Origin: Verrucomicrobiota bacterium
GTDB taxonomy: Bacteria > Verrucomicrobiota > Verrucomicrobiia > Opitutales > UBA2995
Length of the DNA: 34,945 nucleotides
Direction of reading: 5' to 3'
Assembly (NCBI GenBank): GCA_027622555.1
Contig: JAQBYJ010000061.1
Span: 1 to 34,945, forward strand
The translations under genes were made by a program, and so were the position numbers. This document shows, piece by piece, positions 27,649 to 29,943 of the stretch (its first letter is position 1; every line of letters starts with the position of its first letter). The notes below the pieces were generated by a model. That model was not told where the DNA came from and did not search any database. It saw nothing but the letters and a program-made list of their open reading frames with translations.

Positions 27649-28266
27649 ATGTTTACAGGAATCGTAGAGGAGACCGGTACTATCCTTAGCTTTGAGCGAG
27701 ATGATGCGGCGTCCTGTGTCTTGAAGCTTTCTGCCAGCAAAGTGTTGGAAGATATTGTACTAGGCGACAGTATTGCGGTGAACGGTTGTTGTTTGTCTGC
27801 CACTTTTTTTGATAAGAACTCAGGGGAAATTCACTTTGACGTTCTTGAGGAAACCAAGCGCTTAACTTCATTTGCCAATCTCGACGGAGGTAGTCTTGTG
27901 AACCTCGAACGGAGTTTATCGTTCAACGGAAAAGTGGGAGGACACTTTGTAACGGGACACATTGATGCCACGGGTCAAATTGAATTGTTCGAGCAACGAG
28001 GTAATGATTATTTCCTGCGTGTTTCGATCCCAGAAGAACAATCAAAATATGTGATTATGAAGGGCTCAATTGCTCTGGATGGAATTTCCTTAACTGTTGC
28101 CGAAGTAACAAATCGCAGCTTGGCTGTTTGGTTGATTCCTATGACTATGGCATTAACCAACCTAAGCCAAAAGAAGATCGGTGATTTAATGAACCTTGAA
28201 TTTGATATGCTTGGGAAATATGTAGAATCCTTAACCCTGGGTAAAAGCAATGCGGACACAAATTGA
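27649..28266 (+). CDS. ribE: Riboflavin synthase, alpha subunit
   Basis: A 205-residue enzyme that makes riboflavin from two 6,7-dimethyl-8-ribityllumazine molecules. It starts with the family signature MFTGIVEETG, and has the two tandem lumazine-binding barrels: the first through VNGCCLSA and FDVLEETKRLT, the second with GHFVTGHIDATGQI and KGSIALDGISLTV. It has the full expected length and ends with the helix of the trimer-forming tail. Other rib genes are absent from the window, and no riboflavin riboswitch is visible in the 12 bases before its start. It overlaps the next gene by 17 bases. Confidence 0.97.
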   Translation: MFTGIVEETGTILSFERDDAASCVLKLSASKVLEDIVLGDSIAVNGCCLSATFFDKNSGEIHFDVLEETKRLTSFANLDGGSLVNLERSLSFNGKVGGHFVTGHIDATGQIELFEQRGNDYFLRVSIPEEQSKYVIMKGSIALDGISLTVAEVTNRSLAVWLIPMTMALTNLSQKKIGDLMNLEFDMLGKYVESLTLGKSNADTN

Positions 28267-29215
28267 ATTAGTCATCGATGAGTTGAAGCGCCTCAAGCAG
28301 GAGGGCGTTGAGGGGATCTACATTGGTGATTCTACTTTGTCTGATTTGCGGGAAAAGGTGAGTGCCGTCCATTCCGCGGCGTCACCTGAATCGATTGATT
28401 CAGCCGTTGAAGATCCTGCTCAACCCTACGTATCGAAAAAGTCGAATCAGAAGGGAGAATCTTTGCAGGATCTTGTAAAAGGAAGACCGATCCAGAAGGC
28501 TGTCGAAAAAGCAAAAACTCAAGTGGCTCTCAATCAACATGGGAAACCAATACCCGCTATTCCTGTGGCCGCGCCCGAAATCAATTTACCCGAAGGGGAT
28601 AAGCAAATGCGTTGGGATGCATTGAGGGAAATTGTTCTAAATGACCCTATTTGTAAGGAGCATCTGAATCCAGGTTCTCAGGTTGTTTTTGGTGTGGGCA
28701 ATATAGATGCCGAAATCTTTTTCTGCGGTGAAGCGCCCGGTGGTGATGAGGAAAAGCAAGGCGAACCTTTTGTTGGAAGAGCAGGGGAGTTGCTATCCAA
28801 AATTATCACGGCGATGGGTTTGAGTCGTGAAACGGTTTATATTGGCAATATTATGAATTGGCGGCCTGAGATGCCGACGCCGGTAGGAAATCGTCCGCCT
28901 ACGCCTGAAGAAATGGCTTACTGTCTTCCTTACCTTAAAGCGCAGATCGAGGTGGTTCAGCCCAAGGTGATTGTTGCCCTTGGAATGACTGCAGTGAACG
29001 GTTTATTGGGCCCGGATCCTAAGCGCAGGATGGGTGAAATTCGCGGTCAGTTTTTTGATTTTGATAATACCTCAATGTTGGTGACCTATCATCCCTCTTA
29101 CCTTCTTCGTTATGCGACTATGAAAACCAAACGTTTGGTTTGGGAGGACATGCTTTTGGTGATGGAACGGATTGGGATGTCGGTTTCGGAAAAACAAAAA
29201 GGGTTTTTCCAATAA
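28250..29215 (+). CDS. Uracil-DNA glycosylase, family 4-like
   Basis: A 321-residue protein of the uracil-DNA glycosylase superfamily. The catalytic domain starts near residue 115. The family-4 motif GEAPGGDEE (160-168) and KQGEPFVGRAGELL follow, with NIMNWRPEMPTP (200-211) and the second motif HPSYLLR (281-287). Of the four cysteines that bind the 4Fe-4S cluster in family-4 enzymes, only two positions are clear here: Cys135 and Cys225. The partner of Cys135 is His138 (CKEH in place of CxxC), and the KCRP cysteine is Trp204. About 110 residues precede the domain; the first 45 are a helix-rich piece and the rest is charged and probably flexible. It overlaps ribE by 17 bases and ends 14 bases before the kinase gene. 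Confidence 0.85.
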   Translation: MRTQIELVIDELKRLKQEGVEGIYIGDSTLSDLREKVSAVHSAASPESIDSAVEDPAQPYVSKKSNQKGESLQDLVKGRPIQKAVEKAKTQVALNQHGKPIPAIPVAAPEINLPEGDKQMRWDALREIVLNDPICKEHLNPGSQVVFGVGNIDAEIFFCGEAPGGDEEKQGEPFVGRAGELLSKIITAMGLSRETVYIGNIMNWRPEMPTPVGNRPPTPEEMAYCLPYLKAQIEVVQPKVIVALGMTAVNGLLGPDPKRRMGEIRGQFFDFDNTSMLVTYHPSYLLRYATMKTKRLVWEDMLLVMERIGMSVSEKQKGFFQ

Positions 29216-29229
29216 CAGCCACTTATGGA

Positions 29230-29943
29230 ATGGCTGGTTCAATTGACATGGTATTTATACACCCTGACTTTTCAGATTTGCCCGAGTCGTTGAAGCAGGT
29301 GATATTTGAACCGCAATTATTAAGCGAGGCGGGTCTTTTAACCAAAGAACTTCGCGGTCGTGGAGCTACCTATTTTTTTAAGCTTCGCGAGGATGCATAT
29401 GTACTACGTCATTATTGGCGAGGCGGTTGTGCGCGTCATCTTTCCAAAGACAAATATGTTTGGATGGGATTGACGAGAACACGTTCCTACTGCGAGTGGA
29501 GGCTGCTCGAGGAACTCGAGTCACTTAAGTTGCCCGCCCCACGAAGGGTTGCTTTGAGAATCCTTCGCAGCGGTTTGTTTTACCGGTCTGATATTGTTAC
29601 AAAAGAAATAAGGGAAAGCCTGTCTCTTTCTGCTACCCTAAAAGTGGAAGACCTTGAAAGATCAGTGTGGATGAGGATTGGAAGAACGATTCGCCTGTTT
29701 CACGATCATAACGTTTTTCACAAGGATCTGAACGCAAGTAATATTTTACTGACCTTGAAATACTGCTACCTTATCGATTTTGATCGAGCTGGAATCCAGG
29801 TAGGCAACGGATGGAAGTCGGGTACCCTCAATCGTCTGAAACGGTCACTTGAAAAATTCGCTACAAACGAAACCACTTTCCATTACGATCCTGGAAAATG
29901 GATGTCCTTAATGGACGGATACCAACAGATGGGTGAAGGCTAA
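29230..29943 (+). CDS. Kdo/LPS-core kinase-like protein
   Basis: A 237-residue small-molecule kinase of the lipopolysaccharide kinase (Kdo/WaaP) family, which phosphorylates Kdo or inner-core sugar of LPS at the cytoplasmic face. The catalytic loop is FHKDLNASNILL, with Asp166, and the metal-binding segment is YLIDFDRA, with Asp183. YFFKLREDAYVLRHYWRGG near 48-66 is the N-lobe with its lysine. I chose ATG 29230; an open frame reaches back to 29140, but that stretch lies inside the glycosylase gene. The likely product is KdkA-like, which implies a Kdo-containing outer membrane. Its stop at 29943 is three bases from the opposite-strand permease gene. Confidence 0.8.
   Translation: MAGSIDMVFIHPDFSDLPESLKQVIFEPQLLSEAGLLTKELRGRGATYFFKLREDAYVLRHYWRGGCARHLSKDKYVWMGLTRTRSYCEWRLLEELESLKLPAPRRVALRILRSGLFYRSDIVTKEIRESLSLSATLKVEDLERSVWMRIGRTIRLFHDHNVFHKDLNASNILLTLKYCYLIDFDRAGIQVGNGWKSGTLNRLKRSLEKFATNETTFHYDPGKWMSLMDGYQQMGEG

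Follow-up and report, generated by a model that had tools for sequence, protein, structure and literature searches.

A family-4-type uracil-DNA glycosylase that probably works without an iron-sulfur cluster in an order of Verrucomicrobiota

Described glycosylases and the gene in the window

A standing question about the [4Fe-4S] cluster of DNA glycosylases is whether it acts as a structural clamp or in redox and DNA charge-transport signalling. Cluster-less MutY-type adenine glycosylases belong to an Fe-S glycosylase lineage in which the ligands were lost and the enzyme was kept, on an HhH fold unrelated to that of uracil-DNA glycosylases (UDGs). In family-4 UDGs, which excise uracil from both single- and double-stranded DNA, the cluster is bound by four cysteines. 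The family-4 motif A is GE(A/G)PG and motif B starts with HP, as given in the available part of PMC10359453, which also describes UdgX as holding a 4Fe-4S cluster and lists GLAPA and HPSPLN for family 5. The accessible text of PMC10776899 covers the UdgX and Tth UDGa residues from which the catalytic set used here was defined, namely a motif-A Glu, a stacking Phe, a motif-3 Asn that recognises uracil (UdgX N91, Tth UDGa N80) and a motif-B His; it also reports that UdgX K94 (Tth UDGa K83) is needed for folding, the K94A change unfolding UdgX. In Brig1-type antiviral glycosylases a Glu replaces the motif-3 Asn, according to the portion of PMC11078745 at hand. The family-4 UDGs of P. furiosus and A. 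fulgidus lose only about 40% of their activity on Cys-to-Ser changes, and disruption of the cluster in the family-5 UDG of S. acidocaldarius lowers both activity and thermostability (PMC5295032, available part); the first of these results indicates that the cluster is not required for the chemistry. We noticed no earlier description of a cluster-less family-4 UDG in a literature search of partial coverage, which does not establish absence from print.

The window analysed here, a stretch of 34,945 nucleotides from a genome of the order Opitutales, carries on its forward strand a gene for a 321-residue protein of the family-4 type (28,250–29,215). This assignment draws on the open reading frame and on Pfam and NCBIfam matches, and close homologues start at the corresponding Met. 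The protein matches the Pfam UDG domain PF03167 (E 7.7e-37) and exceeds the cut-off of TIGR00758, the NCBIfam model UDG_fam4 (158.1 bits against 125.3); it falls below the cut-off of the NCBIfam archaeal type-4 UDG model. Its AlphaFold2 model (mean pLDDT 88.6) resembles T. maritima TM0511 (1vk2; Z 26.8, rmsd 1.6 over 187 residues) and 1ui0 (Z 25.3). A preliminary description of the stretch had called the protein a family-4-like UDG, and the profile score, the Pfam domain and the modelled fold bear this out.

The window protein shares with family 4 the fold, the GE[AG]PG motif, the motif-3 Asn and the HP of motif B. Unlike family 4, it is without two of the four cluster cysteines, the first being Asp and the third Trp; it has Asn203 where family 4 has a Lys after the motif-3 Asn (a conserved residue, not a strictly defining one), and it reads GEAPGxxEE rather than GExPGxxED. 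Its GEAPG and HPSYLLR set it apart from family 5, and it keeps the Asn (Asn200) that the Brig1-type proteins have exchanged; a search for a defence role with the 2023 PADLOC library, which is older than the Brig1 paper, gave no match. The protein is termed here a cluster-less variant of family 4, because its mode of work, by sequence and model, is probably that of a family-4 UDG, whereas the set of four cluster cysteines, a defining feature of the family, was tested for and is absent.

The ATG of the UDG gene overlaps by 17 bp the 3' end of a riboflavin-synthase-like gene (27,649–28,266), recognised by a match to Pfam Lum_binding. This neighbour is present in 27 of the 60 loci of the order that extend over 9 kb and is uninformative on function; the loci fetched for other groups span only about 1 to 2.6 kb and are too short for a comparison of neighbours. 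The next gene (29,140–29,943) encodes a Kdo/WaaP-type lipopolysaccharide kinase; from its listed TTG it would share 76 bases with the UDG gene, and that start may be false.

Ligand sites in the window protein and across its order

Alignment to the solved enzymes of T. maritima (1l9g/1vk2) and T. thermophilus (1ui0) places the four ligand sites at Asp132 (28,643–28,645), Cys135 (28,652–28,654), Trp204 and Cys225 (28,922–28,924), all on the forward strand, with Asn203 and Trp204 (28,856–28,861) replacing the Lys-Cys of the KCRP motif. Two of the four ligand cysteines are therefore kept, at sites 2 and 4, and those of sites 1 and 3 are lost. Only residues 135, 159 and 225 of the protein are cysteines, so a [4Fe-4S] cluster cannot be held by four of them. 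The preliminary description was right that the ligand set is incomplete, that Trp204 stands at the KCRP cysteine and that Cys225 is the last ligand cysteine. Its choice of CKEH (Cys135 to His138) as the CxxC was off by three residues, and the true site is D132-P-I-C135: Cys135 aligns to the second cysteine of the motif, and His138 is not a ligand position because its column is Leu in all 39 four-cysteine relatives.

Searches with the window protein found a match in 165 of 177 genomes of the order, with none in the remaining 12, and in 353 of 387 genomes across the phylum. From genome searches and a scan of the genome collection, a selection of the order's matches was read and 144 distinct UDGs were aligned, once duplicate proteins, rows with the same last 150 residues and rows of viral origin had been removed. 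Order and class labels are kinship codes; those of loci L032–L111 come from record titles and similarity, and some of these titles are at phylum level only. No sequence among the 144 has cysteine at all four sites. The commonest tetrads (positions 132, 135, 204, 225) are CCWC (63), DCWC (50), CCFC (7), NLWC (5) and HCWC (3); NCWC, CTWN and SCWC occur twice each, and ten further types once. Site 3 is aromatic without exception (W in 134, F in 8, Y in 2), and the position before it, 203, is Asn in 123. Site 1 is C in 76, D in 54, N in 7, S in 4 and H in 3. Site 2 varies among C, L, T, A, F, G and S, with Cys in 130, and site 4 is Cys in 139. In these alignments the loss of cluster ligands is a lineage-wide trait of the order and not a quirk of one gene.

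An extra check covered 20 low-scoring genomes (16 of the order and 4 of the class), and its results stand outside the counts of 144 and of the 40 sequences described below. The order genomes yielded 14 further copies that cover site 3, of which 13 have W or Y, one has Ser (L372, a very diverged copy) and none has Cys; one more copy is a fragment that ends before the site (L375). In two of the genomes (G064 and G014) only a four-cysteine paralogue was found, which, together with the 12 genomes without a match, indicates that the UDG gene is not indispensable everywhere.

To our knowledge Trp does not ligate iron, and no replacement for the missing cysteines is seen in the alignment. Only at 132, 135, 159 and 225 does a domain column hold Cys in 14 or more of the 144 sequences. 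Cys159, immediately before GEAPG, is the sole common cysteine beyond the ligand sites (120 of 144, with Val in 23), and His reaches 100 or more of the 144 in a single domain column, that of the catalytic His281. Another cysteine set at the cluster site, the finding that the preliminary description had said would count against its reading, was accordingly absent among the columns of the order's 144 sequences. That the protein holds a normal [4Fe-4S] cluster through non-cysteine ligands, with Asp132 joined by another residue or by a partner protein, is extremely improbable: Asp can occupy ligand positions of some clusters, as the available part of PMC4070099 has it, but the third position is aromatic in every aligned member of the order, and no other conserved Cys or His column would fit.

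Cluster-less and four-cysteine relatives in the phylum

A second cluster-less clade is made up of 40 UDGs that belong to the families f29 and f33 of the same class, which we infer to be Verrucomicrobiales; no description of it was seen among the papers found. Sites 1 and 2 are replaced in all 40, usually by W and A, and site 3 is W, F or Y in 39, the commonest tetrad being WAFC (30). Lys203 is kept in all 40, and Cys225 in 37 of the 39 sequences that have lost sites 1 to 3. The one member with Cys at site 3 (L282) has Trp at site 4, and this single sequence looks as if the aromatic residue had moved from one site to the other. The low-scoring genomes of the class added three new, diverged f29 copies, with the tetrads AYHC, WAFF and LRFF and the catalytic set in none of the three. 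The first of them (L368, genome G494) has His at site 3, in KHRP, a rare departure from W, F or Y. The other proteins from these genomes were one already counted (L366) and one with GEQPG and KHFKF that looks like UdgX (L376), whose genome (G384) also has a cluster-less UDG.

All 39 phylum sequences sampled outside the two cluster-less groups have the CCCC tetrad; 18 come from the same class (families f30–f32 and f34–f40) and 21 from other classes. In the gene tree the order has support of 100/99, and the four-cysteine sequences lie on one side of a branch with support of 100/82. The order, the f29/f33 set and the four-cysteine set are separate on the tree, so one loss suffices; the best tree needs a single ligand-loss change, and the AU test keeps a tree with two (p 0.208). 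Long branches lead to the cluster-less clades. A change from Asp to Glu at column 168 is common to both clades (Asp in 38 of 39 four-cysteine sequences; Glu in 136 of 144 in the order, 40 of 40 in the second clade and 6 of 6 in a set of f29 paralogues described below), which fits one origin. The trees are unrooted, and we infer loss rather than gain because the 21 relatives from other classes and the T. maritima and T. thermophilus enzymes carry a cysteine at each of the four sites.

The preliminary description had noted an N-terminal extension of about 110 residues, and such an extension is present, made up of two helices, a low-confidence stretch and a confident run into the domain. The AlphaFold2 model predicts a two-helix module of residues 2–17 and 27–43 (28,253–28,378; mean pLDDT in blocks over residues 1–40 of 86, 93, 89 and 89) and a low-confidence linker of residues 44 to about 90 (28,379–28,519; block means over residues 41–90 of 61, 41, 44, 52 and 58, with values below 50 at 48–71), after which a confidently modelled stretch leads into the UDG domain. 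A similar short helical stretch and linker can be seen by eye in several four-cysteine relatives of this and other classes, and from the sequences the extension does not look special. The C-terminal tail VSEKQKGFFQ (29,183–29,212) fits the pattern [IV][SP][ED][KR][QR], which occurs in 114 of 144 sequences of the order, 31 of 40 of the second clade, 6 of 6 of the f29 paralogues, 13 of 18 four-cysteine sequences of the same class and 0 of 21 from other classes; on these sequence counts it is a mark of this class. Neither the extension nor the SEKQ-like tail explains the loss of the cluster.

Homologues on viral contigs were aligned as well. By a quick alignment, 51 of the 68 distinct sequences read CCCC and 17 read otherwise, some of the latter possibly through misalignment. 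Loci without the cysteine set include L197, L235, L214, L242, L220, L245, L247 and L251–L253, of which L197, L214, L235 and L242 have an aromatic residue aligned at site 3 by the same quick alignment. In L249, L250, L221, L223 and L211, site 3 is Asp, Lys or His and the other three cysteines are kept. From these homologues, ligand loss may be recurrent beyond the order.

Catalysis, the remaining cysteines and cellular role

The motifs GEAPG (residues 160–164; 28,727–28,741) and HPSYLLR (residues 281–287; 29,090–29,110) are intact, as the preliminary description had said. The window protein keeps all four catalytic residues, E161, F174, N200 (28,847–28,849) and H281. Across the order Glu161 is found in 137 of 144 sequences, Asn200 in 137 and His281 in 142, and the full set (E161, F/Y174, N200, H281) is intact in 134 of 144, as it is in 40 of 40 members of the second clade. 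Eight of the ten failures come from two families, f13 (L123, L154–L157) and f19 (L138–L140). Of the order's 14 low-scoring copies, 4 keep the set, 9 lack it and one has it in part, and the nine failures indicate that catalysis is not under strict constraint everywhere.

Decayed copies in f13 and f19 are found at L123, L138, L139, L140, L154–L157, L361–L364 and L369; in one example the ligand set CTWN goes together with HPN in motif B and with Pro where motif 3 has its Asn. The f19 genome with the decayed copy L364 (G145) also has a family-1 Ung. A second UDG-like paralogue of f29, counted apart from the 144 and the 40, is represented by six sequences (L135, L136, L137, L287, L288 and L289) in which TDAPG replaces GEAPG; in all six the motif-3 Asn is replaced by His and the motif-B His by Asn. 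It is conserved without the catalytic set, and its sequence suggests that it is perhaps a repurposed DNA-binding protein.

The preliminary description had also suggested that the window protein may have become a DNA-binding relative. Such a role, as a UdgX-like protein that binds or cross-links uracil-DNA or as a decayed, non-catalytic protein, would be in keeping with the catalytic decay just described (10 of 144, and 9 of the 14 low-scoring copies), with the f29 paralogues that carry Asn for His281, and with Asn at the Lys203 position. UdgX itself (M. smegmatis, 6ajo and others) has the same fold as the window protein, with a best Z of 25.5, and the alignment puts His, not Cys, at its ligand site 3. 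However, unlike UdgX, the window protein has GEAPG and not GEQPG, and no KRRIH loop, reading EMPTPVGNRPP after W204-R-P; it scores 129 bits against the UdgX model TIGR03914 (cut-off 189.95) and lies above the family-4 cut-off. With the four catalytic residues kept and no Ung found by TIGR00628 in the window's genome, the suggestion is unsupported for this protein, and we consider it very unlikely.

The loop that follows site 3 differs in length among the relatives. Between sites 3 and 4 there are 20 residues in the window protein, 15 in 20 of the 21 relatives from other classes and 21 in all 18 four-cysteine sequences of the same class. The residue that is Lys after the motif-3 Asn, and that is critical for folding in UdgX, is Asn203 here. 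Judged by sequence, the loop around site 3 is rebuilt and not merely stripped of its ligand.

The retained cysteines bear on another reading, in which Cys, Asp or His at 132, with Cys135 and Cys225, would hold a mononuclear metal or a three-ligand Fe-S cluster, or Cys135 and Cys225 would form a redox disulfide, with Trp204 packed beside them. Cys135 and Cys225 are both present in 129 of 144 sequences, and in 125 of these 144 they are accompanied by C, D or H at 132; Cys225 is lost in 4 of 14 sequences without Cys135 as against 1 of 130 with it; and Asp at Fe-S ligand positions of hydrogenase is generally well tolerated (PMC4070099, accessible part). However, the joint loss comes down to only three independent supported pairs on the tree, too few to serve as proof of a metal pair, and it was rejected as such. 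Among the 201 domain columns, 69 of which are conserved at 90% or more, Cys225 ranks 39th in conservation and Cys135 only 68th, whereas site 1 ranks 148th and has undergone at least 17 changes on the tree; the replacements at site 2 (L, T, A, F, G, S) are mostly not ligand types. Furthermore, Cys225 is kept in the second clade by sequences that have lost the other three sites, so its retention needs no metal. An altered metal or redox site of this kind is rather unlikely. It is a shade more doubtful that the order has re-used the three positions as a new small metal site or redox switch beside the aromatic core; were this so, another regulatory site would have taken the place of the [4Fe-4S] cluster in a DNA-repair glycosylase.

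Considering sequence and model together, the likely explanation is that the window protein is an active UDG, descended from [4Fe-4S] family-4 UDGs, that works without a cluster and has an aromatic residue in place of the third ligand. The preliminary description had offered work without a cluster or with a different one. The first option is the best-supported reading, with sites 1 and 3 lost, no replacement cysteines and the catalytic residues kept; the second is less likely, given the drift at sites 1 and 2 and the modest ranks of Cys135 and Cys225. In the proposed course of events, the third ligand would have become an aromatic residue in an ancestor of this UDG branch, and the ring would fill the pocket vacated by the cluster, steadying the N-terminal segment together with the loop that joins sites 3 and 4, as the cluster does structurally elsewhere. 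After the loss, site 1 would have drifted mainly to the helix-capping residues D, N and S, which fit a helix that begins at residue 133 in the model, and site 2 would in part have become hydrophobic. Uracil would be hydrolysed from its sugar by the usual family-4 route, and base excision repair would take over at the abasic site left behind. Three observations sit less easily with work without a cluster: the joint retention of Cys135 and Cys225 in most of the order, which an idle pair would not need; the Asn at the counterpart of the folding-critical Lys; and the exceptions to an aromatic site 3, namely Ser in L372 of the order and Cys in L282 and His in L368 of f29.

Of 156 genomes of the order, 5 had a match to the family-1 Ung model TIGR00628, with a control that was positive in 6 of 14 known genomes. 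A PF03167 search of the window's genome returned two UDG-superfamily genes, of which the one in the window is over the family-4 cut-off. The other (L002:1426-2052; match G000:C9:10270-10605), also counted apart from the 144 and the 40, encodes a shorter protein with GQAPG, HPSGAS and four cysteines spaced as CxxC ... C ... C; it is over the Pfam cut-off and under all three NCBIfam UDG cut-offs, and the paralogues in G064 and G014 (L373 and L374) are of its kind. Because Ung is missing from most genomes of the order, the window-type UDG is probably the order's main uracil-excision enzyme, the search for other UDG families covering the window's genome only. The same genome encodes an EndoIII-type 4Fe-4S loop (PF10576), so the cluster was probably not dropped for an inability to make clusters.

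A family-4 enzyme that is unable to hold the normal cluster seems to serve both the order and a second clade of its class; the window's own cell keeps the genes of other Fe-S repair proteins, and Ung is rare in the order. As the enzyme probably works without its cluster, it would be a naturally occurring test of the cluster's purpose. Four-cysteine and cluster-less relatives within one class form natural pairs in which the role of the cluster may be tested without artificial mutants.
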